Assembly: GCF_016811075.1 (NCBI RefSeq)
Contig: NZ_JAFBGL010000002.1
Span: 62,001-126,000 of the forward strand
Reading direction: 5' to 3'
DNA from: Oceaniferula flava
Lineage (GTDB): Bacteria; Verrucomicrobiota; Verrucomicrobiia; Verrucomicrobiales; Akkermansiaceae
DNA: 64,000 bases
This document shows positions 38,542 through 51,821 of this stretch, piece after piece. The translations under genes were made by a program, and so were the position numbers. Every line of letters starts with the position of its first letter. Positions within the stretch are counted from its first letter, which is position 1. Under the pieces are notes generated by a model. The model worked only from the letters and a program-made list of their open reading frames with translations. It searched no databases and was not told the origin of the DNA.

Positions 38542-40350
38542 ATGATCGATCGTTATGAAATAGTTAGCCAGCTGGGTGAAGATCTCCTCGGGGCGGTATA
38601 CCTCGCAGATGATACCATGCTTCAGCGCCGGGTGATGTTCAGGCACATTGAACAGGCGGACCGTAAAGTCGTGGAGAGCAGGAGTGATTCTTGGCGCAAA
38701 GATTTTAGCAAATTTGCAGGGAAACTTTGCAACATGCAGCACCCGAACTTGCTGACTATTTATGATATTTCCACGGAAGACGATGGCGCCTTTGTGGTGA
38801 CTCAGTACATTGAGGGTGACTCATTGGCTGAACGTTTGGAAAAGGGGGCGCTCGGTCAGGTGGGGGTTCATCGGATGGCGGCAGATATGTTAGAAGCCTT
38901 GCATGCGGCTCATCAGTCGGGTGTCTATCATGGAGCCCTTCATACCGCATCGGTCAGCCGAGTGCATCGGGCTGCGGGAGGTCATCGCTATCTGCTGGTA
39001 GATCTTGGTTTGAATCAGTTGGTATCCATGGTGAAAGGTGAGCAAGTCAGCGTGGCTGATCCTGTTTTGCTTGCTCCGGAATTACATGATCGAGATGTCG
39101 AGCCGGATGCCCGAGCGGATTTGTTCATGCTGGGGCAGCTGTGCTACACGGCCTTGGTAGGCGGGCATCCTTTTTCGGGGATGGACGCAGACGAGTGCGT
39201 GGCAGCCTACCAAAGTAAGGGCATGCCTCCCCTGTCAGATTATGTAGAAAATGTGGACCCTAGTTTCGCTGAATGGGTGATGCGGCTGGTGTCTCATGAT
39301 CCGCTAGCAAGACCTATGGACACGGCAGAGGCGATGGTGTCACTGCATACCATCACCCTGGATGAGGTAGCCCCTAACGTGCCGGGTGAAACCCATGCTG
39401 TGGAATTGGCGGAGATGCCACAGTTACGTGCCAGCACTGGCCCTGTGGCAGCCACTCCCGCAACGCCGGTGAGCACATTTGGCAATCCAACTCCTCAGCG
39501 TCAACCTGCCAACTCAGCAGTGCACGCAGCGGCGGCTAACAGCGCTGCAAAAGCCCAGGGCTTGGGGCTTGGCTTGGGCACGTCAGCCCAGAGCGCTGGA
39601 GCTCTGCATCAAGATATCGTGGCGGAAGCCAAGAAGAAAACTCTCAAGCTCACCTTGTCTGGCATCTTGGCGGTATTAGTGGTCGGGGGGCTGTTCATCA
39701 TGTTGAACCAACGGCAAAGCGAGCAACAGGCAAGTTCTGATGCCGCTGAAAGCGAAGCTCTTCCTTCGGTGCAGATTTCCCAAGCGATGATGGTCAATAC
39801 TAACGCGGAACGGGAAGATCCGGTGGTGGTTAATCTCGATACGGCAAACTCCTTGGATTGGCTCGTGACTACCACTCTACCTTCCCCTGAAAACTACACA
39901 TCGAAGATCGATGGCTCGTATATTCAGAGTTTTCAACTGAGTGACGTAAAGAGCGAATACCGTTACACCCAACCATCGGTGAATTTTAAATCCGGAGGGA
40001 AAAAGTTACTTCCGAGAGCTGCGACTGGGAATCACACGGGCAGTAAGCCGGGCGCTGGCTACGAGTTGCTTCTGCGGATCCCTGCTGAGGCCACAGAATC
40101 GTTCACTGCGAATCTCTATTTCCTTCAACGTTACTGTGATGTCCGTGTGGAAATCGATACCCCTGAGAGTGAATCCGCAGAGGTGAAATTGATACCTGCG
40201 ACCGATGCCGGGGTGCTCTGCCTACCTATCGAGATCAATCATCCTAAGCCGGGCGACTTCTACACCATTCGCCTACTTTCAACCTCCTCGTCTGTAAGTG
40301 GTGCCTTTTCCATTGGCTTATGTGGGGTGTCGATTGAGTCGAAGGAGTAG
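38542..40350 (+). CDS. Protein-kinase-fold protein, probable pseudokinase, membrane-anchored
   Basis: 602 residues. Residues 5-270 follow the Ser/Thr kinase fold, but key residues are gone: the Lys of VAIK is Arg34 (VMFRH), and HRDLKPSN reads HGALHTAS (130-137), so the catalytic Asp is Ala132, the Lys is His134 and the metal-binding Asn is Ser137. The DFG Asp remains (DLG, 154-156), as does APE (178-180). This is a pseudokinase pattern. An Ala/Pro-rich linker follows, then one membrane helix near 374-391 and an extracellular beta-rich domain of about 200 residues. It may sense a surface signal or act as a scaffold. No phosphatase is adjacent; the SpoIIE-type gene at 63736 is far away. Confidence 0.85.
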   Translation: MIDRYEIVSQLGEDLLGAVYLADDTMLQRRVMFRHIEQADRKVVESRSDSWRKDFSKFAGKLCNMQHPNLLTIYDISTEDDGAFVVTQYIEGDSLAERLEKGALGQVGVHRMAADMLEALHAAHQSGVYHGALHTASVSRVHRAAGGHRYLLVDLGLNQLVSMVKGEQVSVADPVLLAPELHDRDVEPDARADLFMLGQLCYTALVGGHPFSGMDADECVAAYQSKGMPPLSDYVENVDPSFAEWVMRLVSHDPLARPMDTAEAMVSLHTITLDEVAPNVPGETHAVELAEMPQLRASTGPVAATPATPVSTFGNPTPQRQPANSAVHAAAANSAAKAQGLGLGLGTSAQSAGALHQDIVAEAKKKTLKLTLSGILAVLVVGGLFIMLNQRQSEQQASSDAAESEALPSVQISQAMMVNTNAEREDPVVVNLDTANSLDWLVTTTLPSPENYTSKIDGSYIQSFQLSDVKSEYRYTQPSVNFKSGGKKLLPRAATGNHTGSKPGAGYELLLRIPAEATESFTANLYFLQRYCDVRVEIDTPESESAEVKLIPATDAGVLCLPIEINHPKPGDFYTIRLLSTSSSVSGAFSIGLCGVSIESKE

Positions 40351-40447: not shown

Positions 40448-42736
40448 CTACTGGAGGTCTTTTGCCTGATAGGGGGTGGCTTGATCCTGGGTGGATGCTC
40501 TGACTTTGCGGACTTCATTGACGTCGCCAGCCGAGGCTTTGTTGCTCCAGCTGTTCCGTGTGAAGGTGATGACGTCCGCAAGGTCTTGATCGGAGATGGC
40601 GTGGTTGTCCTTCAGGCCGGGCATGGCCAGTGGGGGACTGTATTTTTTGCCAGCCACGGTGATCGGCCCGGTCATGCCGTGCAGCAAGATTTTGGTGAAG
40701 CGTGTGATGTCTCCGGTGACCCACTCTGACTTGTCCAGGGGAGGCCCCATGTTGTCCATGCCTTCGCCTTCTTGGCCGTGGCAGGCGAAACAGGCGGCCT
40801 TGTTAATGTAGACGTTTTTACCGCGGTTGAACGATTCCAGGGCTTTCCCCTTGAGATGCGATCCGGGGGCTTTTTTCACCACATCTGCCTGCTGGGTAGC
40901 TTTGGTCGCGGCGCTGACGAGCTTGTCGAGTTTGCCATCGGAGAGTTTGCTGTGCTCCTTGCGGAAGCTCACCACCTCGGCGCCGAGTCCGCTGATCAAT
41001 GTTTCACGGACCCAGGGGGCCTTGAGATGGCTTTCGGTCAATTTCAGTGCCTCATCGCTGGATCCTGTGGCGGCCAGTGCCTTGATTTGGGCATGCAGTG
41101 TGCGGGTGTTCTCGGGCAGGGAGACGATCGCCTTTTGCAGCGTTTCGTCCTTGAGTCGCAGGGTGGCGACGAGGTTGAGAGCGTTGTTGACGACATCCGT
41201 GTGATCGCTTTTCAGAGCCGGGATGAGGGCTGGGGCGGTGATGCTGTCGAGCCCTTCCAAGGTCCACATGGCGTGGATCTGAGCGAGGGGATTGGTGCGA
41301 TCGGCCACCACCTTTACCAGCGCATCGACGATGCTAAGATCGCCGGACTCCACGAGCAGGCGCTGGGCGGTGTCGCGGATGGTGCCATTGGCGTGGCTGA
41401 GGTATGGGATCCATTGAGCAGGCGTTAGGCCCTCGAGTTTCGGCACCTCGGAGACTTTATTTTTCTCGTAACGCACGCGGTAGATGCGACCGGTCGACGG
41501 CTTTGGCTGGTCGAGCTTGCGGTGCACATACTGGCGGCGCAGGTAGCTGGTCATGTAGGTTTTGTGCTGCAACAGGCCGAAATACATATCGACGATCCAC
41601 AGCGTGCCGTCCGGGGCGGTGTAGATGTTGCAGGGCAGGAACCACTCATCGTCGCTGGCGAGGAATTCCTTGTCGCCATAAGGGTGGGATCCTTTGGGTT
41701 TGTTCCACTGGTCGCGTTCGATCTGGATTGCCTTGATTAAGTCACCAGCTGGTTCGGTGGTGAAGCCCATGCCCACGGCGGAGGCTGGGAAGTTGTCGCC
41801 CCGGTAGATGGTCATGCCGGCTGCAGCGGTGGCATTGGCCAGCTTGCCATCCTTATCCAAAATATCCTTCATGTAGGCGCGGTTGACACCTGGGGTCATG
41901 TGGATGGGGTTGGTTTTGTTCGTTCCCACACGCTCGGAAATCCTAGCCTTCGGCGTGTAGTGGGAGTTTCCGCGCATGAACATCGGAGGGAACACATCGC
42001 CGACGAGCAGGACGCTGTTGCTATTGTGGTAAAGGTTACCGGCATTGTCCTTGGCCACGCCCCATTGGCCGCGGTTGTTGGTTTTCTCAATCTGCCATTG
42101 GCCTTTGACGCGGCGGTAGCGTTTGTTAGATTTGGCGTTGTAATACCAGTTGTCATGACCCAGCAGCAGGCCGTTCGCCTTGTGCTCCGGGTTGCCGCCA
42201 ATGGCGTATTCGGCATCGACCACGACCGGTTCGCCCACGGGCTTCAGACCATCGCGTTTGATGAAATACAGAACGTCCTTGCTGGTGTAGAGGCAACCGT
42301 CGCTGGTGACGGCCACGGCACGCGGCAGCACCAGACCATCGAGGAAGGTGGTGGTTCGGTCGATTTTGCCATCGCCATTGGTATCTTCCAGAACGCGGAT
42401 GCGACCGTTGGGTTTTTGTTCACCATTGCCATCGAGATCCGGCATGTAGCTTCGCATTTCACACGACCAGGCACGGCCGTTGGCATCAAACGACAGTGCC
42501 ACCGACATGTCGACATCTTCGCCAGCGGCTACCGGTTCGATGACAAAACCAGGTGCCATTTTAAAGGATTTCAGCGCATCGTCGAGATCGAGGTAGGGCG
42601 AAGGCGGGATGGAATCGATCGGTATCGGATCGGTCATATCATGCCCTTTGCGGTTCCCTTGCTGGGCGAAACCAGGAAGGCAGACCAGACTCAGCGATGC
42701 GGTGAGGAGGATGCGTGTGTGCGATGAGAGCTTCAT
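40448..42736 (-). CDS. PVC-type membrane-bound dehydrogenase with HEAT repeats and cytochrome c
   Basis: 762 residues. Signal peptide (SLSLVCLPGFAQQ). Residues about 50-430 form a beta-propeller of the GDH/PVC dehydrogenase type (FDANGRAWSCEMRSYMPD, VLEDTNGDGKIDRTTTF, GGNPEHKANGLLLG). Residues about 440-620 are helical HEAT-like repeats. The C-terminus (650-750) is a cytochrome c with CFACHGQEGEGMDNMGPPLD, so one haem is attached at CxxCH. It is expected in the periplasm, oxidising a sugar or its derivative and passing electrons on. Last gene before the terminator, 26 bases after the DUF1080 gene, so it belongs to the uronate operon by position. Confidence 0.92.
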   Translation of the reverse strand: MKLSSHTRILLTASLSLVCLPGFAQQGNRKGHDMTDPIPIDSIPPSPYLDLDDALKSFKMAPGFVIEPVAAGEDVDMSVALSFDANGRAWSCEMRSYMPDLDGNGEQKPNGRIRVLEDTNGDGKIDRTTTFLDGLVLPRAVAVTSDGCLYTSKDVLYFIKRDGLKPVGEPVVVDAEYAIGGNPEHKANGLLLGHDNWYYNAKSNKRYRRVKGQWQIEKTNNRGQWGVAKDNAGNLYHNSNSVLLVGDVFPPMFMRGNSHYTPKARISERVGTNKTNPIHMTPGVNRAYMKDILDKDGKLANATAAAGMTIYRGDNFPASAVGMGFTTEPAGDLIKAIQIERDQWNKPKGSHPYGDKEFLASDDEWFLPCNIYTAPDGTLWIVDMYFGLLQHKTYMTSYLRRQYVHRKLDQPKPSTGRIYRVRYEKNKVSEVPKLEGLTPAQWIPYLSHANGTIRDTAQRLLVESGDLSIVDALVKVVADRTNPLAQIHAMWTLEGLDSITAPALIPALKSDHTDVVNNALNLVATLRLKDETLQKAIVSLPENTRTLHAQIKALAATGSSDEALKLTESHLKAPWVRETLISGLGAEVVSFRKEHSKLSDGKLDKLVSAATKATQQADVVKKAPGSHLKGKALESFNRGKNVYINKAACFACHGQEGEGMDNMGPPLDKSEWVTGDITRFTKILLHGMTGPITVAGKKYSPPLAMPGLKDNHAISDQDLADVITFTRNSWSNKASAGDVNEVRKVRASTQDQATPYQAKDLQ

Positions 42737-42762: not shown

Positions 42763-43461
42763 TTAGAGTTGCTTCAGCTGCAAGTTGCGCCAGCGAACAT
42801 GGCAGGATTTTCCACTGTGCACCTGGAGGCCGAAGAAGCCCTCGCGGGTGTCGTCTTTCTTATCGGTGTCTGTGAAATCGACGCGTTGTTCGCCATTGAG
42901 CCAGGTCTGGATGTGGTTGCCTTCGCAGCGGATCACGATGGTGTTCCAGTCGTCCCATTTGAAGAGTTTTTGACCTTGAGCTGTGAACTTGGCGCACTGT
43001 TCTTTGTTTTTCTTATCGGGGAAAAGCCAGCCGCGGCGTTTCTCATCGAACAGGCCTGCCGTCCATGAGCGGGCGTGGCCATTGTCGCCTTCGCACTGGT
43101 AGCCGTAGACGCGACCATTGCCATCTTTGGATGGTTTTTGCAGGGCGCGGAACATTAGGCCGGAGTTGCCACTGCGATCGTCAAACTTGAACTCAAAGGT
43201 GAGTTCGAAGTCGCCGTAGGTCTTCTCGGTGCGCAGGAAGGTGTTGCCCTTCACGTTCTCGCCGTGACCCACGATGCAGCCGTCCTCAACCTTGAACTGG
43301 CCGTTGCCGCCAACGATTTTCCAACCATCGAGGGTTTTGCCATCGAACAGGGCGATGGTCTTGCTATCCTTGGCCTCTGCGGCTGCAGGTTCGGCATGGA
43401 GAGTTGCGGAGGTGAATACGGCAGCGGCCGCAATGAAGGTGGTTAATCGAGCTAGGTGCAT
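42763..43461 (-). CDS. DUF1080 (3-keto-disaccharide hydrolase-like) exported protein
   Basis: 232 residues. Signal peptide (FIAAAAVFTSATLHAEP). The DUF1080 jelly-roll follows: FDGKTLDGWKIVGGNGQF, GDFELTFEFKFDD, SGLMFRALQ, YQCEGDNGHARSWTAGLFDEKR, ending FFGLQVHSGKSCHVRWRNLQLK. The fold is shared with laminin-G-like sugar-binding domains and with 3-keto-glycoside hydrolases. Together with the Gfo/Idh/MocA oxidoreductase and the TIM-barrel isomerase upstream, this is the usual gene set for 3-keto-glycoside breakdown. Probably periplasmic. Confidence 0.9.
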   Translation of the reverse strand: MHLARLTTFIAAAAVFTSATLHAEPAAAEAKDSKTIALFDGKTLDGWKIVGGNGQFKVEDGCIVGHGENVKGNTFLRTEKTYGDFELTFEFKFDDRSGNSGLMFRALQKPSKDGNGRVYGYQCEGDNGHARSWTAGLFDEKRRGWLFPDKKNKEQCAKFTAQGQKLFKWDDWNTIVIRCEGNHIQTWLNGEQRVDFTDTDKKDDTREGFFGLQVHSGKSCHVRWRNLQLKQL

Positions 43462-43537: not shown

Positions 43538-44404
43538 CTAATCCGAGCCAGCGATGATTCCTTCCATTGCCTTGCCGTATTTGACGTAGCTGTCGTAGCA
43601 CTGTTGCCAATCCACCTCATCCGACTTGGCGTGGAAAACCGTTGCCACATGGGGCTCGATGGCGATGAAGCCGTCGTAATCGTTCGCCTTGAGGTCATCG
43701 ATGATCGCCGGCACATAGGCCTGACCATCGCCCGGGAAAACATACTCCGGCTCGACGTCGTCACTTTTCGGATTCCGACAGTCTTTGATGTGGATGTGGA
43801 TGATGTGCTCGCGCACGTCTTGGTAAAATTGCCATGCGTCCTGCCACGGCTGAGGTTCCTCCTGGGAGCGGTCGCGTTGGAAGACCGGATTGCCGGTGTC
43901 GAAGATCAGGCGCAGGCCGGGGACTTCCTCGATGAGGCGCAGGGTGTGGCCGCTGGAAAAGCCGCCGTAGTTCATGCAGTTCTCATGCGCCACGGTGATG
44001 CCGGCCTCGCTGAAGCGGGCGGTGACGGCGCGCAGGCGACGGAAGCGTTCGTGCTCCCGCTGGTCCTCGCCCCATGGTTCTTGGGCGTAGGACATGACGC
44101 GGACGATCTCGGTGCCGAGCCGTTGCATCCGGGGAATGCAGCGCTCGACTTCATCCATGGTGAGGGTGAAGTCGCTGTCGATTTTTTTCGACCAACTACC
44201 GATCAACGATCCGAACTCGGCGATCTTGATCCCGGCGTCCTCGAGCTGGCCGCAGGCGGTGTCGAATGCCTTGTCGCTCAGGTCGTGGATGTTCTTGCCA
44301 TCGATGCCGCGGGCGGAGATGTAATCCCAGCCGAGCTCCTTAGTAGCTTTGATCTGGGTGGCGAGGTCGAGCGCCGCTTCGTCGGCGAATCCGGTGAGTT
44401 TCAT
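43538..44404 (-). CDS. TIM-barrel sugar-phosphate isomerase/epimerase (AP-endonuclease-2 fold)
   Basis: 288 residues from the ATG at 44404; the frame extends 57 codons upstream into the previous gene's tail but those residues are Pro/Ser/Arg-rich noise. Seen: MKLTGFADEAALDLATQI, AHENCMNYGGF, IFDTGNPVFQ (metal ligand Asp), IHIHIKDCRNP (metal His), FPGDGQAYVP and GFIAIEPHV (Glu). Metal-dependent xylose-isomerase-like fold without signal peptide, so cytoplasmic. Members epimerise or isomerise ketoses and inosose compounds, or act on 3-keto sugars. Sits between the Gfo/Idh/MocA and DUF1080 genes. Confidence 0.9.
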   Translation of the reverse strand: MKLTGFADEAALDLATQIKATKELGWDYISARGIDGKNIHDLSDKAFDTACGQLEDAGIKIAEFGSLIGSWSKKIDSDFTLTMDEVERCIPRMQRLGTEIVRVMSYAQEPWGEDQREHERFRRLRAVTARFSEAGITVAHENCMNYGGFSSGHTLRLIEEVPGLRLIFDTGNPVFQRDRSQEEPQPWQDAWQFYQDVREHIIHIHIKDCRNPKSDDVEPEYVFPGDGQAYVPAIIDDLKANDYDGFIAIEPHVATVFHAKSDEVDWQQCYDSYVKYGKAMEGIIAGSD

Positions 44405-44462
44405 GCTGGTTGGGAAATCGGGAATAGGAATTTCGAGATGGGGCACTGCGTCGGGGCGCAGC

Positions 44463-45506
44463 TTAGAGGAGGATCTTTTTGCCGTCGTTTTGCGCGGACT
44501 CGTAGATCGCGGTGATGACGGCGACCGGTTTTCTGGCTTCGGCGGACGAAGTGGTCGGTTCGCGGCCTTCGGCAATGGCTTGCACCACCTCCTCGAAGTT
44601 GCGCTGGTGCTGGTAGGTATTGATCGCGGTGGGATCGTTGGCGCCGAGTCCTGCTTCCTGGCCTTTCATCAGCGTTTCCTTGATCTCAGCGTCTTCCGGT
44701 TTTTCCTCCATGAAGTCCCAGCTCTCGAAGGATTCATCGGCAAGAAATACCGAACCTTCCGTTCCTGACAGCTGCACACGGGCCGGGTGGCCGTCTTTCG
44801 ACCAGCAGCAGGTGGATGCCTCAATCACGCCGCGGGCGCCATTTTCAAATTCCAACACCGCTACGCAATGGTCTTCGACCTCGATGCGTTCGTGGGCGAG
44901 GCAGACGGTATTCGCCTGCACACTTTTCACGGGTCCGGCGAGGTGGATCAGGGCGTCGACCGTATGGATCGATTGGTTCATCAGCGCACCACCGCCGTCG
45001 AGCGCCCATGTGCCGCGCCAGCCTGCGGAATCGTAGTAAGCCTGATCGCGATACCATTTGATGTAGGCGGATGCCGAAGCGAGGGTGCCGAAGCGTCCTT
45101 CATCTGCGGCTTTTTTAAATGCCTTCATGCCCGGGTGGAAACGGCGGTTCAGCACAGCGGCGAGCGTCTTGCCGTTTTCTTTCGCCGCGGCGATGAGTTG
45201 ATCGATGCGCTCGAGAGTGACTTCTAAGGGCTTCTCAACGATCGCGTGTTTTCCTGCATTGAGGGCAGCAAGTGTGGGATCGAGGTGGGCGCCGCTGGGA
45301 GTGCCGACGGTGACAATTTCCAAGTCACTGTCCGCGAGGAAAGCATCCATGTCCGAGTAAGCCTTCGCCCCAAAGTCGCTGGCCAATGTCTCGGCGCGCT
45401 CCTGGTTGAGATCAAAGACCGAGTGAAGCGATCCGCCGTCCATGTCGGTGATGGCCTTGGCGTGAAAACGGCCGATCATACCGGCTCCAATAATTCCGAA
45501 TTTCAT
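44463..45506 (-). CDS. Gfo/Idh/MocA-family oxidoreductase
   Basis: 347 residues. N-terminal Rossmann loop IIGAGMIGRFHAKAI, then EKPLEVT (Lys of the EKP motif), and the C-terminal beta-sheet domain with DGGGALMNQSIHTVDALIHL carrying the catalytic-type HxxD. It oxidises or reduces sugars using NAD(P). No Tat or Sec signal, so cytoplasmic. Gap to the permease gene is 21 bases. Leader CAACAACCTACTTATCTT before the ATG, with no Shine-Dalgarno site. Confidence 0.93.
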   Translation of the reverse strand: MKFGIIGAGMIGRFHAKAITDMDGGSLHSVFDLNQERAETLASDFGAKAYSDMDAFLADSDLEIVTVGTPSGAHLDPTLAALNAGKHAIVEKPLEVTLERIDQLIAAAKENGKTLAAVLNRRFHPGMKAFKKAADEGRFGTLASASAYIKWYRDQAYYDSAGWRGTWALDGGGALMNQSIHTVDALIHLAGPVKSVQANTVCLAHERIEVEDHCVAVLEFENGARGVIEASTCCWSKDGHPARVQLSGTEGSVFLADESFESWDFMEEKPEDAEIKETLMKGQEAGLGANDPTAINTYQHQRNFEEVVQAIAEGREPTTSSAEARKPVAVITAIYESAQNDGKKILL

Positions 45507-45527: not shown

Positions 45528-47141
45528 TTAGGCGATTTTGTTGTTTTTGACGAAGCCGATGATACCGACGATGGCCAGGATGGCGAGGGCTCCCATGCCG
45601 AGTTGACCGGGCAGACCTTTGCCGCTCAGTGCCCAGATCGAGGCAAAGCTGGCAACCCCTGCCGAGATGATCATCAGGATGTTGATCAATGCGCGCTTCT
45701 TGGGGATTTCATTTCCGAGGGCTGACTTCGAGTTCATCAGGAGGATAAAGGCGAGGTAGGCGATGGGTAAAAGGGTGGTGGCGATGACGGAGGCTGGCAC
45801 GGCCATGGCGGCCTTCGATTCGCCCGACCAAAGGTGGGGGGAAAACAGGCCGGCGATGGCAGGCATGGCGGCACCGATCAAGAAGACCTTGGCGCTGCCA
45901 ACCTTGTTCACAGCTTCCGAGATGGCGTAGCCGTTCATCATCATGTGCACCAGCATGGTGGAAATTGCCATGGCGAGAACGCCGATGCCGAAAATGATCT
46001 GGGCACCTTTGCCGAGGAATGGCTCCAGCGACTTGGCGAGGTTGGAGGCCTTGCGGTTGGAGAGCATCGCGGCGAGTTGTTTTTCCGGAAGGGGAACGGT
46101 GAGGCGCGCTGCGGCTTTGTCCTCGTCGTTGAGATTGGCGAATTCCTTGTTGGTGCTGGCAATGCGTTTGTCTAACACCTCGTTGTAGATGCCCTCCATT
46201 CCGGCGAGCGGTTTGCCCTGAGCGTCGATGACGTCGGCATGTTTCGCGTGGAAACTGGCAGCTGATGAGATCACCAGCGCCGAGGCTCCGAGGATAAAGG
46301 GGATGAACAGACCCAGACCGAGATCGAAGCGTGAGAGCTCGCGGTGCTCTTTGCCCCAGCCTTTTTTCTTCAGAGAGTAAGGCAGCAGGAAGGTCATGTT
46401 GATCCCTACGGCGGTGCCGAAGGCGGCGATGATTTTAGAACGCTGCTGGGTGGTGACGTATTCGGTCCAATAAGCCGATTGTTCTCCAGTGGCTTGGATG
46501 GCGGTGTTGATCTGATCGGTGGGTCGGAAAAGGGCAGTGAAGTCAGGAATGAGACCGCCGAAGAGGTGGCCCCAGTTGATGGCTCCCTTAGCCGCAAGCG
46601 TGACAACCACTCCCATGAACGCGAGCACGATGATGGCGACCAGACCCTTCAGCACATTATCGATGATGCGTGACGCCTTGCCTTCCTTTTGGGAGATTGC
46701 AATCAGTGACAGCGAGATGATGAAGAAGGAAACGGTGATGACATAGGGGTTCACATCGAAGCCCAAGTTGCCGGTGATCGCCCCGGTTCCCAGCGCAAAC
46801 TGGGCGGCGCAGAAAACGGTGTCGGCAATCACGGTGGCAATCAGCCAGCCCCAGGCGAGTGCGGGGGAGATTTTTTTCTCCACGGTGCGGAAGGGTCGCT
46901 CATCGGTGGAGAGGGTGACGTAGGAAATGGCCGCCAGCATGACGATACCGCACAGCATGGCCAGTGGTTGCAGCCAGAGGAACTCATAGCCGCCGATTAC
47001 GCCGAGGTAGAGCGCACCGACGAGTGAACCTCCGCCGAGGGTGACCGCCGCCTGGATCCAGCCCGGGCCGCTGAGTTTGGCGTAAATGCCGAGTTTGGTG
47101 AGGAATCCGCCGTTCTGGGCGCGAGTGAGAGGGTCTGACAT
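45528..47141 (-). CDS. Nramp-fold transporter lacking the DPGN motif
   Basis: 537 residues with about 11-12 membrane helices. The first helix reads GPGWIQAAVTLGGGSLVGAL: this matches the position and flanks of Nramp helix 1, but the metal-binding DPGN is replaced by TLGGG, and the helix-6 MPHN-type metal motif is not recognisable. A polar insertion of about 90 residues (around 290-380, with repeated charged residues) lies between helices 7 and 8. Nramp homologues that have lost DPGN are known to carry other substrates. Its place inside a uronate-catabolism operon suggests an organic substrate such as a uronate or disaccharide. Identification of the fold is by pattern only; an APC-superfamily permease is the broader safe call. 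Confidence 0.7.
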   Translation of the reverse strand: MSDPLTRAQNGGFLTKLGIYAKLSGPGWIQAAVTLGGGSLVGALYLGVIGGYEFLWLQPLAMLCGIVMLAAISYVTLSTDERPFRTVEKKISPALAWGWLIATVIADTVFCAAQFALGTGAITGNLGFDVNPYVITVSFFIISLSLIAISQKEGKASRIIDNVLKGLVAIIVLAFMGVVVTLAAKGAINWGHLFGGLIPDFTALFRPTDQINTAIQATGEQSAYWTEYVTTQQRSKIIAAFGTAVGINMTFLLPYSLKKKGWGKEHRELSRFDLGLGLFIPFILGASALVISSAASFHAKHADVIDAQGKPLAGMEGIYNEVLDKRIASTNKEFANLNDEDKAAARLTVPLPEKQLAAMLSNRKASNLAKSLEPFLGKGAQIIFGIGVLAMAISTMLVHMMMNGYAISEAVNKVGSAKVFLIGAAMPAIAGLFSPHLWSGESKAAMAVPASVIATTLLPIAYLAFILLMNSKSALGNEIPKKRALINILMIISAGVASFASIWALSGKGLPGQLGMGALAILAIVGIIGFVKNNKIA

Positions 47142-47177: not shown

Positions 47178-47957
47178 TTAGATGCTCATGGCGTCGAATC
47201 CGCCATCGACGATCATTTCTGTGCCGGTGATGAAGCTGCCGGCCTTGCAGGAAGCTAACAGCAGCACAGCGCCAATGAGCTCGTCCGGATTTCCAAAGCG
47301 CGACATCGGCGTGTTGCGCAGGATTTCCAAAACGCGGGATTCATCGAGCACCTTGCGGTTTTGTTCGGCGGGGAAGAAGCCTGGCACCAGCGTGTTCACG
47401 CGGATATCCTTGTCGGCCCACTCTCTGGCGAGGTTTTTGCTGAGGTTGTGCACGGCGGCTTTTGAGGCCGAGTAGGTGAACACACGCGAGAGCGGATTCA
47501 GTCCGGAAATGGAGCCGAGATTGATGATGGAAGCGGGCGCGCCTTGCTCGAGGAAGTATCTGCCGAACACCTGGCAGGCTTGCACGGTGGCGCCGAAGTT
47601 GATGCTCATGATGTTTTCGAGCTCCTCGTCGGTGATTTCCAAAAATGGGGTCGGCGAGTTGACTCCGGCACCATTGATCAGGATGTCGATGCGACCGGAT
47701 TTGACCACCACTTGTTCAAGCAGCGACTCCAGCGAGTCCTTCTTGCTGAGATCGGTGGCGACGAAATAACCTTTGCCTCCTGCTTCTGAGATGGCGTCGA
47801 GTTTGGCGTCCGCCTTGCTGGCGTCACGGCCGGCGAGAACCACCTCCACGCCGGCTTGGGCGAGGCCGTTGGCCATGTGTCCGCAGAGTTCGCCGGTGCC
47901 GCCGATGATGACGGCGACTTTGCCTTTGAGGTCGAAGAGAGAATCGAGATAATTCAT
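47178..47957 (-). CDS. SDR oxidoreductase, probable fructuronate reductase
   Basis: 259 residues, classical SDR: cofactor loop [14 protein letters not shown] near 19, INGAG near 96, catalytic Ser in LGSISG, YSASKAA near 163 (Tyr, Lys) and the [10 protein letters not shown] loop. The sequence type, beginning with [19 protein letters not shown] and lacking the usual TGGxxGIG, resembles the SDR-type D-mannonate oxidoreductases (fructuronate reductase, replacing UxuB) and KduD. The uxaC gene 12 bases upstream makes the first more likely: uxaC yields fructuronate, this enzyme would reduce it to mannonate. No uxuA is in view. Confidence 0.85.
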
Positions 47958-47969
47958 GATGTTGGTTGG

Positions 47970-49388
47970 TTAGAGTGCGGTGGGCCAGTTGAAATACCGG
48001 CTGGCATTCTCGTAGCAAATATGGGTGATGAGGGCATTCAGCTGGGCGCTGTCGTCTGGTATTTCTCCAGCTTCCACGGCTTGGCCGATGAGCTGACAGA
48101 GAAGCCGGCGGAAGTATTCGTGACGGACGTATGAGGTGAACGAGCGGGAGTCGGTGAGCATGCCGACGGAGGTGCCGATCGCGCCGAGCGACATCAGCAG
48201 ATCGAGCTGCTCGATGATGCCGCGTTTGTGGTCGAGGTGCCACCAGGCTGGGCCGTATTGCACTTTGCCCGGGCAGCTGGCGTCCTGGAAATTCTGGGCC
48301 GCGCAGCAGATGGCGGCACTTTCGTTTGGGTTGAGATTGTAGACGATGGTGCGTGGCAGGGCGGCCTGCTTTTGCAGAGCACCGAGGAAATCGACGAGGG
48401 CTTCGGTCTGTGGCCAGGCACCCATGGTATCGAAGCCGGAGTCCGGTCCGGTGCGCTCGAACATGGTCGGGTTCACATTGCGCAGTGGACCGAGGTGCAG
48501 CTGCATGGTCCAGTCTTTCTCCGCGTTCCAGGCGGCGACGTGACTCATGATGGCGGAGGCGAAAAGCTCCTGCTCGTCCTTGTTTGCCGCAGTTCTGCCG
48601 CAGGTGGCCTGGGTGAAGATGTTGTCCAACTCATCGCGGTCGGTGTTGTCATCGTAGCCGTTCGGGCAGAAGGGCAGGCCGTGATCGGAGAGTCGACAAC
48701 CGACGGCGTGGAAGTCGGCGTGGCGCTTTTTCAGTGCATCGATCAGGCTTTGGAAATCGGAGATCGGCTGGCCGACGCATGCTTGCAGCTTCTGAATCCA
48801 CTCGGTGAAGACTTCGGGGCGATCGACCGCCATGGCGAGGTCGGGCCGGAAGGTGGGGAGGGTGACCACCGTGTCTTCACTGCCCAGTTTTCCGTGCACC
48901 GAGAGATCGGCTGCCGGATCATCGGTGGTGCAGACGAGCTTGACCTTGAATTTTTCTAACAAGCCACGCACGCTCAGCGATGGATCATCGGCGAGTTGTT
49001 GGTTGGCATTGTTCCAAATCGTCTCGGCGGTATCGGCGGAGAGCACAGTGTGGATGCTGAAGACTCGCTGCAGTTCCAAGTGCGCCCAGTGGTGCACCGG
49101 ATTGCCCACGGCCATCGGCATGATCTTCGCAAAGGCTTCGAATTTCTCCCAGGGGCTGGCGTCTCCGGTGATAAACTTTTCCTCCACACCACAGCCGCGC
49201 ATCAGGCGCCATTTGTAGTGATCATGTTTCAGCCAAAGCTCCCAGAGGTCAGCGAAGCGATGATCGTCGAGGATCTCTTGCTGGTTCAAGTGGGTGTGGA
49301 AATCGATCACCGGAAGATCGGCGGCGACCTCATGGTAGAGGTGGCGCGCGGTTTCGGTATCGAGAAAGACGTCCTTGTTCAAATACAT
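47970..49388 (-). CDS. uxaC: Uronate (glucuronate) isomerase
   Basis: 472 residues, normal length. It isomerises glucuronate to fructuronate and galacturonate to tagaturonate, using a TIM-barrel of the amidohydrolase group. Seen: DFHTHLNQQEI near 29 (His-x-His), FADLWELWLKHDHYKWRLMRG near 45, the HADFHAVGCRLSDHGL region near 225, and SVGMLTDSRSF near 415. It is the second gene of the operon, 19 bases after the Ldh2-type gene. Start without Shine-Dalgarno. Confidence 0.95.
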   Translation of the reverse strand: MYLNKDVFLDTETARHLYHEVAADLPVIDFHTHLNQQEILDDHRFADLWELWLKHDHYKWRLMRGCGVEEKFITGDASPWEKFEAFAKIMPMAVGNPVHHWAHLELQRVFSIHTVLSADTAETIWNNANQQLADDPSLSVRGLLEKFKVKLVCTTDDPAADLSVHGKLGSEDTVVTLPTFRPDLAMAVDRPEVFTEWIQKLQACVGQPISDFQSLIDALKKRHADFHAVGCRLSDHGLPFCPNGYDDNTDRDELDNIFTQATCGRTAANKDEQELFASAIMSHVAAWNAEKDWTMQLHLGPLRNVNPTMFERTGPDSGFDTMGAWPQTEALVDFLGALQKQAALPRTIVYNLNPNESAAICCAAQNFQDASCPGKVQYGPAWWHLDHKRGIIEQLDLLMSLGAIGTSVGMLTDSRSFTSYVRHEYFRRLLCQLIGQAVEAGEIPDDSAQLNALITHICYENASRYFNWPTAL

Positions 49389-49407: not shown

Positions 49408-50475
49408 TTAGGAAATGACGGTCAGGGCGGGGCGGCCAAGTGCCTCGGCGATCTCGTTGAGCTCCGCCAGCTCGGCATCGCTGAAGAGGAGACCGCCTGC
49501 TTTTTCAGACTCTTGGGCGGCTTGTGCTTCTAACTGACCGGGCAGCAGGCAGTTTTCATTACCTGGTCCGAGGATGTTTTCTATCACTGCCTTGACGTTG
49601 CCTGCCTGATCGCGACCCGCGGCAAAGGCACCACCGGACATGGCGTCCGGGTGGATGATCTGGAAGAAGAACGAGGTGCTGTTTTTCTCATCGGCACTTG
49701 GAGAAGTGCGGCCACGGTGCGCGGGCAGCGAGCCTCCGATGAAGGCACCGGTGATTTCGTTGATCAGGGAGAGGCCGTAGCCCTTGTGTGCGCCGAAGGG
49801 GAGCAGGGCGGCGACTTGGTTCGGGTCGGTGGTCGGGTTGCCATCGGCATCCACGGCAGCCATTGGCGGCAATTCCTTACCCTCGCGCTTGAGCTGCTGC
49901 ACCCGGCCCATGGCGCAGGTGGACGTGGCCCAGTCGATACAAATCGGGTAGCCCAGTGCCTCGGTGGTGGGGAATCCCCAGCTGTGGGGGTTGGTGCCGA
50001 GTGTCGGGGTTTTGCCGCCGAAGGGAACCACCTCGGCGAGGGTGGAGGTGCAGTTGGTGTAGGCGATGTAGCCGCGCTTGGCGGCCTCGATGACGTAGCC
50101 GCCGCCCCAGAGGTAGTGGAAGCAGTTGTCCACGCTGACCATGCCGATGCCGTGTTGCTCGGCGAGTTCGATCGCGCGATCGAAGGCACGTTTGGCGACC
50201 GATTGGCCGAGCTTCTTGTTCGAGTTCCAAACCTCGGCGGCGGAAAAGCGGTTCTCCACCACGTCGATATCCGCTCCTGGCACACAGCCTCCGTTTTTCG
50301 AACCGAAGAGATCGTCGAGGTGCAGGGCCTTGAGGGCGTTGTGGGTGCGGTTGCCGTGCCAGGTGGCTGCGGCGCACATCTCGGCGGCATCGAGCGCCTC
50401 ATCGGATTTAAACCCACGGGCCTCGTAGGCGGCTTGCACCAGGGCGTTATGTTCTTCGACAGAAATGATGTTCAT
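49408..50475 (-). CDS. Ldh2/MDH-type dehydrogenase (YlbC/YiaK family)
   Basis: 355 residues from the ATG at 50475; 56 upstream codons look like leader. Seen: TWHGNRTHNALKAL (the His-rich substrate loop), GIGMVSVDNCFHYLWGGGYVIEAA, TLGTNPHSWGFPT (family hallmark near 180), and AAVDADGNPTTDP with PFGAHKGYGL (NAD(P) site). The family covers malate, L-lactate, ureidoglycolate, and 2,3-diketo-L-gulonate reductases. In this operon a 2-keto-acid step of sugar-acid breakdown is likely. First gene of the operon, facing the XylR-type regulator. Confidence 0.9.
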   Translation of the reverse strand: MNIISVEEHNALVQAAYEARGFKSDEALDAAEMCAAATWHGNRTHNALKALHLDDLFGSKNGGCVPGADIDVVENRFSAAEVWNSNKKLGQSVAKRAFDRAIELAEQHGIGMVSVDNCFHYLWGGGYVIEAAKRGYIAYTNCTSTLAEVVPFGGKTPTLGTNPHSWGFPTTEALGYPICIDWATSTCAMGRVQQLKREGKELPPMAAVDADGNPTTDPNQVAALLPFGAHKGYGLSLINEITGAFIGGSLPAHRGRTSPSADEKNSTSFFFQIIHPDAMSGGAFAAGRDQAGNVKAVIENILGPGNENCLLPGQLEAQAAQESEKAGGLLFSDAELAELNEIAEALGRPALTVIS

Positions 50476-50607
50476 GATGTATGAAGGATGGTAGTGGTCT
50501 GGAAATGTTAGGGTGGTCCGGTGGCTGTCTGGGCACGGCCGAAGCCTTCCTTGGGCCCCGGATTTCCCACGCGGGAAACGTAGAGACTGACAGCACGCAA
50601 TACAATA

Positions 50608-50634
50608 TTGACCTGCGTAATAAGAATTTATAAA
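50608..50634 (+). promoter_or_regulatory. Candidate sigma-70 promoter of the AraC/XylR-type regulator
   Basis: TTGACC (50608-50613) and TATAAA (50629-50634), 15 bases apart, 41 bases before the regulator's ATG. The region between the two divergent genes (50476-50675) should also hold the operon promoter and the operator bound by the regulator; no clear inverted repeat was found. Confidence 0.45.
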
Positions 50635-50675
50635 ACGCGACACAGTTAAGCTGCTGAACTAGCCCATCTCACCAT

Positions 50676-51821
50676 ATGAAATCAAGAAAACCAATTGTCC
50701 TATTTCTAGGTAACCGTCAGGGATACTTTTCTCGAGAGGTCCTCCGAGGGATCATGTCGATGCGCTCGGATGGCTGCGACTGGGAAGTCTGGGTGATGCC
50801 GATGATTCACGAAAAACGACAGTTAGCGGCCTGCCTCGAGGGGCGGACCATTGCAGGCGTGATCGCTCGCGGGCTCAATAAAGAGCTCCAAGATTTCCTC
50901 GTGGAGCTGGAAGTTCCCTTGGTGGCCATTCGAGGATCGGACTCCAGCGATGAGGATGTTTCCAATGGCCTGCACGTCGATGATGAAGCGATCGGCGGCA
51001 AGGCGGGGGCGGAATTCGAGCACCTCAATCTCGACTACTGGGGGTTTGTGCACTGGCAGGGCGTGGCGTGGTCGGAGGCGCGGTTGAAATCATTCCAGGC
51101 CTACGCCGATTTCCGTGGTGCGACCAACAGCATCCTTTCGCTGGATGCCAGCGAGCGCCAAGTTTGGGACGGGGTGACCAAGATCCGCGACTGGCTTCTC
51201 GAGCTGCCGAAGCCCTGCGGGATTTTGGCCTGCAATGATGAAGCCGGGGTGGATGTCTTGCACGCCTGTCAGCTCGCCGAGCTGAGTGTGCCGGACCAGG
51301 TGGCGGTGATTGGGGTGGACAACGATCGACTCCTCTGTGAGTCCGCCGTGCCGCCGCTGAGCAGCATCGACCTGCAAGCTGGCGATGTCGGTAAGGCCGC
51401 AGCGATGCAGTTGCGTAGTTTGTTAGGTCATGAAGAGGTCGAAAGCGTGCATATCAGCCAGTCGTCCATCGTGGTGAGGGAGTCGAGTCACGAGATCGAC
51501 CGCTACTTGCTGACCTATCAGAAAGCGATGGACTTCATTGCCAGCAAGGCGGTCAGCGGCATTTCGGTGGCGGAGGTGGCATTGAGCTGTGGGGTTTCGC
51601 GCCGCGGGGTAGAGCGGGCCTTTGAAAAATACTCCAGTGAGACTCCCGCGGGAGTGATCCGGCAGCAGCGCTTGGCCGCGATCCTGCATTTGTTGAAAAG
51701 TCAGCCCCTGAACCTGGAGCATCTCGCTCAGCAGACTGGGTTCTCTGATCCGGCTGGCCTGTCCAACTTCATCAAGCGCATGACCGGCAAGCCGCCGGGC
51801 GCATTCCGCCAAGATCATTGA
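50676..51821 (+). CDS. XylR/AraC-family transcriptional regulator
   Basis: 381 residues. The N-terminal 275 form a LacI-like sugar-binding domain (VLFLGNRQGYFSREVLRGIM, GILACNDEAGVD near 184, VIGVDNDRLLCESAVPPLSSI near 211-231). The C-terminal 100 carry an AraC-type double helix-turn-helix (GISVAEVALSCGVSRRGVERAF, then HLAQQTGFSDPAGLSNFIKRMTG). This layout is that of E. coli XylR. It is divergent from the uronate operon, so it most likely activates it when a uronate or related sugar binds. Confidence 0.92.
   Translation: MKSRKPIVLFLGNRQGYFSREVLRGIMSMRSDGCDWEVWVMPMIHEKRQLAACLEGRTIAGVIARGLNKELQDFLVELEVPLVAIRGSDSSDEDVSNGLHVDDEAIGGKAGAEFEHLNLDYWGFVHWQGVAWSEARLKSFQAYADFRGATNSILSLDASERQVWDGVTKIRDWLLELPKPCGILACNDEAGVDVLHACQLAELSVPDQVAVIGVDNDRLLCESAVPPLSSIDLQAGDVGKAAAMQLRSLLGHEEVESVHISQSSIVVRESSHEIDRYLLTYQKAMDFIASKAVSGISVAEVALSCGVSRRGVERAFEKYSSETPAGVIRQQRLAAILHLLKSQPLNLEHLAQQTGFSDPAGLSNFIKRMTGKPPGAFRQDH

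Follow-up and report, generated by a model that had tools for sequence, protein, structure and literature searches.

Proteins of the Pfam family Nramp (PF01566) are commonly annotated as metal transporters. In the accessible part of PMC12873925, Nramp-related proteins were described as diverse and paraphyletic, lacking DPGN, MPH or the proton path; among these groups only EleNRMT (characterised), which carries Mg2+ without the canonical motif, and MntG (hypothesised) had been assigned, and the rest were called entirely uncharacterised. A set of 'orphan' PF01566 proteins was treated as the outgroup of Slc11 in the available portion of PMC10606218. An organic cargo has a precedent in PxpT of C. 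glutamicum, since this protein was essential for growth on 5-oxoproline; it is 50% identical to YcsG and is counted as an Nramp by TCDB, and its authors do not exclude metal transport (PMC13274462, accessible text). YcsG, also named MntG, was reported as an Mn2+ importer (PMC10448178, accessible text). Additionally, a 3-keto-glycoside pathway comprising LacABC, DUF1080, a transporter, two epimerases, and a reductase was proposed in Caulobacter (PMC9007349, accessible text). No link of Nramp-fold proteins to sugar carriage was found in the literature covered, to which subscription journals mostly did not belong.

Predicted fold and metal-site residues

The window, which is the whole analyzed stretch of 64,000 nucleotides from Oceaniferula flava, contains a Nramp-related permease (hereafter NRL) in a series of eight minus-strand genes running from 50475 to 40448 (Table 1). 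These encode, in order, Ldh_2, UxaC, SDR, NRL, GFO, TIM, a 3-keto-disaccharide hydrolase, and a haem CxxCH protein. They are spaced by 12-76 nt, given internal ATG starts for Ldh_2 and TIM: the longest Ldh_2 ORF covers 49408-50643 with a likely ATG at 50475, and the longest TIM ORF (43538-44575, TTG start) would overlap GFO, with a likely ATG at 44404. The eight genes presumably form one transcript; promoter and terminator scans stayed near shuffled expectation and were given no weight. As had been stated in the preliminary description, NRL is located between the SDR and the Gfo/Idh/MocA dehydrogenase genes; all three are on the same strand. It was the sole multi-pass protein recognised among the eight, where TIM, which the ORF pick of the window had replaced with an antisense ORF, is a soluble barrel by Pfam. 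UxaC was identified by Pfam (PF02614, E=1.6e-171) and by its NCBIfam equivalog (527 bits against a cut-off of 387). Just beyond the 3' end of the operon, a serine/threonine-kinase-like protein of 602 aa was recognised by eye on the opposite strand (38542-40350, +).

Table 1. Features of the NRL operon and its surroundings, in window coordinates.
Feature	Position	Strand	Description or basis
NRL, Nramp-fold permease	45528..47141	-	537 aa; TLGGG at (I)DPGN site; 12 TM segments by rough hydropathy count
NRL codons T34-G38 (TLGGG), site of Nramp (I)DPGN	47028..47042	-	Alignment to E. coli MntH
NRL 81-residue insertion, residues 298-378, TM7-TM8	46008..46250	-	Alignment and model
GFO, Gfo/Idh/MocA dehydrogenase, constant NRL partner	44463..45506	-	Pfam and neighbourhoods
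TIM, xylose-isomerase-like TIM barrel (AP_endonuc_2), probable sugar epimerase/isomerase	43538..44404	-	Pfam
3-keto-disaccharide hydrolase domain protein (PF06439)	42763..43461	-	Signal-peptide-like N-terminus by eye
PVC-type haem-binding CxxCH protein (TIGR02604)	40448..42736	-	Signal-peptide-like N-terminus by eye
SDR oxidoreductase	47178..47957	-	NCBIfam D-mannonate oxidoreductase best, 245.4 bits, below cut-off of 281
UxaC glucuronate isomerase	47970..49388	-	43% identity with E. coli UxaC
Ldh_2 (malate/L-lactate dehydrogenase) family enzyme	49408..50475	-	Start at internal ATG
XylR-like regulator, periplasmic-binding-protein-like domain and AraC-type HTH	50676..51821	+	Divergent from operon

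The ATG start of NRL was consistent with those of close relatives. Nramp (PF01566) was the sole Pfam family found in it (E=6.1e-25), scoring 88.5 bits where the cut-off is 29.8, and the NCBIfam metal-transporter equivalog Nramp_1 remained below cut-off (30.1 bits against 50). A fold search was needed because a PDB sequence search with NRL alone gave no match and a PDB profile search gave just a weak match to human DMT1 (Nramp2; E 0.015). An AlphaFold model, for which 27 natural family members served as input, reached a pLDDT of 85.9 and a pTM of 0.85. Among Foldseek's 1000 best matches, the top structure was DraNramp (Z 41.3, rmsd 2.6 over 379 residues); the other Nramp-type matches included human NRAMP1 (Z 40.0), EleNRMT (37.9), and the YcsG model (36.7), and the top non-Nramp match was AdiC (Z 28.8). 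Since the model is closer to the Nramps than to AdiC, the prediction indicates an Nramp fold, beyond a generic LeuT fold. The PF01566 score and the Nramp-like predicted structure thus bore out the earlier proposal of an Nramp-fold permease, and the prediction fell within Nramp/LeuT rather than outside the APC/LeuT fold.

The residues of the metal site were compared using helix 1 of NRL, SGPGWIQAAVTLGGG, and an alignment of 114 proteins including E. coli MntH. The IDPGN of MntH helix 1 corresponded to T34-L35-G36-G37-G38 of NRL, the MPH of TM6 to G246-I247-N248, and the proton-path DLAE of TM3 to CAAQ. Two Bacteroidota proteins (L210 and L212) were dropped as canonical references, as they were also without DPGN despite strong Pfam scores, and E. 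coli MntH was therefore taken as the reference. Residues T34, G36-38, Q114, G246, I247, and N248 were invariant in all 27 diverse members, the window included, and the TM1/TM6 motif columns overall were invariant or nearly so across these members. The loss of the motif is therefore shared across the family rather than confined to the window gene, and the earlier claim that TLGGG has replaced DPGN with loss of the metal ligands held in the alignment to MntH and is fixed in the 27 members. Remoter relatives varied in helix 1, where TLGAG, SLGGG, ALGGG, and TIGGG were found. A histidine of TM8, H399, was considered as a cargo-specific residue, since the close GFO-linked clade has it where the sister clades have Leu. 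It was dropped because distant clades share it and other GFO-linked clades do not.

With this fold, NRL might still be a divalent-cation carrier (Mg2+/Mn2+) that supplies metal-dependent enzymes of the operon such as TIM and UxaC. The metal Nramps and NRL have one fold, as seen in the Z scores for DraNramp and EleNRMT, and both EleNRMT, which moves Mg2+ without the canonical motif (PMC12873925, accessible part), and the distant relative YcsG, reported to import Mn2+ (PMC10448178, accessible part), would be examples of such a carrier. However, Asp, Glu, His, and Cys were all absent from the TM1/TM6 site columns of NRL (T34-G38 and G246-N248), and we regard a metal cargo as quite unlikely, also in view of the gene neighbourhoods described below.

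The charged insertion near the middle of the protein, noted in the preliminary description at about 90 residues, was present with a length of 81 aa (residues 298-378). It contains 12 K/R and 11 D/E and was modelled at a pLDDT of 81-93 with several short helices. By homology to the Nramp topology, the insertion would be periplasmic. It seems to be missing from the more distant planctomycete relatives, whose matched stretches are separated by a gap.

Gene order in related genomes

At E 1e-3, relatives of NRL were found in 36 of the 387 Verrucomicrobiota genomes; at E 1e-20, 6 Bacteroidota genomes out of 395 and 77 Planctomycetota genomes out of 392 gave a match. The genome searches, for NRL as for GFO, scored few candidates in each genome, and absences may therefore be overstated. 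A collection of named genomes yielded 40 NRL loci, including those of Rubritalea profundi, Persicirhabdus sediminis, and Croceivirga thetidis. In the genome of O. flava itself, NRL was the single PF01566 gene above cut-off, with a match on C10 below it. The 116 NRL loci were reduced to 105 by removing 11 at 95% or more identity, and a close set of 32 non-redundant loci was defined by an NRL at least 50% identical to that of the window, the window included. Five loci with no recovered NRL ORF (L125, L128, L131, L159, and L180) were left out, as were short or overlapping ones (L001-L033 and L074-L101); most of the latter genomes, not all, re-entered as longer stretches. Genes came from a greedy ORF picker and TM counts from rough hydropathy, the loci from MAGs may contain binning errors, and the NRL tree was built from these loci and rooted on E. 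coli MntH.

In 28 of the 32 close loci, GFO was encoded on the same strand within 250 nt downstream of NRL. The four others were L054, L060, L061, and L057, and in the last TIM follows NRL at 4 nt. Of the 26 close loci having at least 2 kb of downstream sequence, 20 encoded TIM within 2.7 kb. Across all 105 loci, a GFO-like gene was directly downstream in 37, including two (L116 and L118) where GFO was only 36-37% identical, and this linkage spans loci of Verrucomicrobiota and Bacteroidota. Besides NRL, the 37 GFO-linked same-strand runs encoded no recognised protein predicted to have at least six TM segments; two of these runs (L112 and L123) consisted of NRL alone as picked; outside the run, such a protein was encoded within 6 kb in six of the 37 loci (L036, L053, L058, L107, L122, and L123). 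NRL and the best GFO were on different contigs in G240, G339, G273, and the fragmented G115. Many planctomycete relatives were without GFO-TIM neighbours, so the cargo may differ across the family.

This recurrence bears on whether NRL could be a non-transporting sensor or a passenger of the operon. Nothing direct speaks for such a role beyond the lack of a known cargo, while the close linkage to the same dehydrogenase in two phyla and the complete Nramp-type model at a pLDDT of 85.9 argue against it, and we consider it highly improbable.

The neighbourhoods were also characterised by a Pfam scan of 105 neighbour proteins, up to two ORFs per side, from 31 of the 32 close loci. Proteins of less than 150 aa or of 900 aa or more, those at contig ends, and those with X were left out, and the antisense ORF of the window was swapped for TIM. 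The neighbours included 28 Gfo/Idh, 19 AP_endonuc_2, seven 3-keto hydrolase, seven DUF7133, seven cytochrome c, six short-chain dehydrogenase, and five UxaC proteins. Neither metal regulators nor the pxp families (pxpABC) occurred among the 25 commonest Pfam families, the 27 further families having at most one member each. The linkage of homologues to metal-regulated genes, which the preliminary description had named as evidence against its proposal, was thus not found among these 25 families, and this absence also counts against a metal carrier.

Further evidence came from genomes in which GFO is without NRL. GFO (at 51% identity or more) was found in 30 of the 387 Verrucomicrobiota genomes, of which 21 encoded NRL (Fisher p ~2e-18, kinship not corrected). 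Among the nine NRL-less genomes, four (G178, G251, G307, and G327) encoded an MFS protein divergently beside a GFO of 81-83% identity, and their genus mates G277 and G319 had NRL in that slot. The MFS protein matched Pfam Sugar_tr and MFS_1 above cut-off, and its best NCBIfam models, aromatic-acid:H+ and sialate:H+ symport, were below cut-off. In G086, an MFS gene was about 2 kb from GFO, and in the remaining four (G215, G254, G268, and G316) the DNA around GFO encoded no recognised protein of at least six TM segments. The occurrence of an MFS protein in place of NRL was limited to one genus; that it adjoins the same GFO there nevertheless argues against NRL as a metal carrier, which would moreover leave the sugar of the operon without a recognised carrier. 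Conversely, the GFO of the window was 84-85% identical to those of L112, L115, and L124, while NRL in these loci was 44-48% identical, which suggests from sequence comparison that the permease gene swaps within its own family while the dehydrogenase remains.

Sugar chemistry and the uronate link

The lack of a metal site, together with NRL being the apparent sole transporter in sugar-breakdown operons, makes a sugar or sugar acid a more probable cargo than a metal. The two conserved partners were consistent with such a cargo. In GFO, residues E91-K92-P93, N177, Q178, and H181 were kept in at least 95% of 38 rows, and in TIM, residues E141, D169, H205, and E250 were kept in at least 95% of 26 rows. 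The four TIM residues presumably bind metal, and their retention would suit an NRL that supplies the operon with metal. GFO was 28.6% identical to E. coli YcjS (E 1e-21), annotated as D-glucoside 3-dehydrogenase, and TIM matched E. coli YcjR, annotated as 3-dehydro-D-guloside 4-epimerase, over 62 residues only (E 0.001). The PDB chains closest to GFO were 3q2k and 3q2i, which we take to be WlbA, an enzyme that works on C3 of a uronic-acid sugar nucleotide, though this identity was given no weight; the glucuronide-3-dehydrogenase 8tdi was lower in the list.

Two window proteins with signal-peptide-like N-termini, the PF06439 hydrolase and the haem CxxCH protein, are presumably exported, and the latter is possibly a periplasmic dehydrogenase. 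Chemistry on either side of the inner membrane would then meet via one carrier. Among the genes of the window operon, neither a dedicated glycoside 3-dehydrogenase nor a dehydrogenase resembling LacABC was recognised. In 15 of the 116 loci, a separate Gfo/Idh cluster was found at most 7 kb from NRL; its sole member tested (L102:14266-15720, -) is a Gfo/Idh protein with a Tat signal that scored 280 bits with BT_2158_fam against a cut-off of 750. It resembles the BT_2158 glycoside 3-dehydrogenase family and may make the 3-keto sugar outside.

The uronate genes were a less constant association. UxaC was encoded in the flanks of 18 of the 105 loci (10 of 32 close and 8 of 73 others), compared with about 0.4 expected assuming 1.2 copies per 4.5 Mb, and it recurs near NRL in several branches of the tree; homologues beside uxaC, for which the preliminary description had suggested a search, therefore do exist. 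In six loci (the window, L036, L042, L062, L064, and L104) SDR adjoins NRL with UxaC just upstream, although UxaC and SDR are separated by one gene in L036. In the Verrucomicrobiota, UxaC was found in 285 of 387 genomes and in 34 of the 36 with NRL (Fisher p 0.002, kinship not corrected). As UxaC is far commoner than NRL, NRL is not the general uronate carrier of the phylum, and a uronate role, if right, would be local to these operons. In 20 NRL-less genomes, the surroundings of UxaC (16 kb) were surveyed for a carrier that replaces NRL. A protein of at least six TM segments occurred in 6 of 14 usable cases, at variable positions; the crude ORF picker missed UxaC itself in the other 6 of the 20, and the GFO-centred survey was used instead. 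The genome of O. flava, 98.48% complete, gave no PF03786 match for UxuA. This leaves a gap after mannonate or fructuronate in the proposed uronate route, which another dehydratase or route would have to fill; a KDPG-aldolase-family gene was present.

Taken together, NRL is proposed to be an inner-membrane importer of a sugar acid or 3-keto sugar whose cargo is processed by GFO and TIM, with a probability of about two in three. A 3-keto-glycoside hydrolase outside would free a 3-keto sugar or sugar acid, which NRL would import by the alternating access of the LeuT fold. GFO would then carry out a redox step at a ring carbon of the cargo, perhaps C3, and the epimerase-like TIM would convert it along with GFO. 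The product would pass, in the window as in related operons, to UxaC and the fructuronate-reductase-like SDR, and the cargo there would therefore most likely be glucuronate or a 3-keto-glucuronate that the hydrolase frees outside. There is fair confidence that NRL carries an organic solute and, separately, fair confidence that this solute is of a sugar type; a uronate or 3-keto-uronate as cargo is tentative. Of the sugar or uronate carrier expected earlier, the sugar or sugar-acid carrier remained the best supported, as a putative role, while the uronate genes proved to be minority neighbours (18/105): the constant partner of NRL is the dehydrogenase-epimerase pair, and only some of the loci show the uronate link.

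NRL could instead carry another small organic solute, such as an aglycone, an amino-sugar, a lactone, an intact glycoside, or an exported by-product, on which the dehydrogenase-epimerase pair would act. PF01566 proteins of related genomes beside Oxidored_FMN, DUF993, and MR_MLE genes, or beside amidohydrolase, zinc alcohol dehydrogenase, and apiosidase-like genes, would fit such a cargo, as would the need for PxpT in growth on the lactam 5-oxoproline (PMC13274462, accessible text). The conserved partners, in contrast, are from families rich in sugar-acting members, and UxaC recurs in several tree branches, which makes a solute of this kind unlikely. 

Several variants were observed among the more distant relatives. 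A shorter planctomycete NRL clade (L171-L173, L177, and L179) was flanked by FMN-oxidoreductase-like (Oxidored_FMN), DUF993, and enolase-superfamily (MR_MLE) genes, which suggests a different organic cargo. In another locus, a motif-less PF01566 protein of 446 aa (L206:5297-6637, -) was encoded amid an amidohydrolase, a zinc alcohol dehydrogenase, and an apiosidase-like gene, a sugar-type setting. Additionally, a 479-aa PF01566 protein (L209:5713-7152, -) with SIGNGE in helix 1 was encoded near a same-strand SMP-30/gluconolactonase-like gene.

Comparison with known systems

Most Nramp-related groups beyond the metal importers are without an assigned cargo in the accessible part of PMC12873925, and the NRL branch, with its fixed sugar-enzyme partner, offers a concrete and testable cargo class. 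A sugar role would correct annotations in Verrucomicrobiota and Planctomycetota, would add a sugar-linked branch to the question of organic versus metal cargo raised by PxpT and YcsG, and bears on the cargo of the Nramp-family ancestor before metal. In a broader and rather doubtful extension, the glycine-motif, DPGN-less Nramp-related proteins would be organic-solute symporters (of sugar acids, 3-keto sugars, and lactams) from which the metal Nramps were derived by gaining DPGN and MPH. On this view, the NRL clade would import 3-keto-uronates made outside the inner membrane and would, to our knowledge, comprise the first sugar carriers with an Nramp fold.

Compared with the canonical Nramp/MntH proteins (SLC11), NRL has the fold and PF01566 in common, whereas DPGN, MPH, and DLAE are all replaced. 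EleNRMT is alike in fold (Z 37.9) and is also without the canonical motif, but its cargo is a metal. PxpT and YcsG resemble NRL as non-canonical Nramp homologues in a catabolic operon, with a Z of 36.7 for the PDB model of YcsG; unlike NRL, they belong to a pxpABC operon, and YcsG is 14% identical to NRL in the structural alignment. The proposed Caulobacter pathway, in the part of its description available, is similar to the window in its 3-keto hydrolase, epimerase, reductase, and one transporter, and the PF06439 hydrolase, the Gfo/Idh enzyme, the AP_endonuc_2 enzyme, and one putative transporter stand all together in the window operon. It differs in that the transporter slot of the window is taken by an Nramp-fold protein and LacABC is without a recognised counterpart in the operon. 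NRL is also like the Nramp-related and orphan PF01566 proteins ('G-motif' groups), which, as far as their accessible descriptions go, have the Nramp fold, no DPGN or MPH, and missing proton-path residues, as NRL does. NRL is unlike the orphan groups in its recurrent sugar-catabolic gene order and its 81-residue TM7-TM8 insertion. The loss of the motif as such has already been described; what is new is the context of NRL, a recurrent sugar-catabolic gene order.
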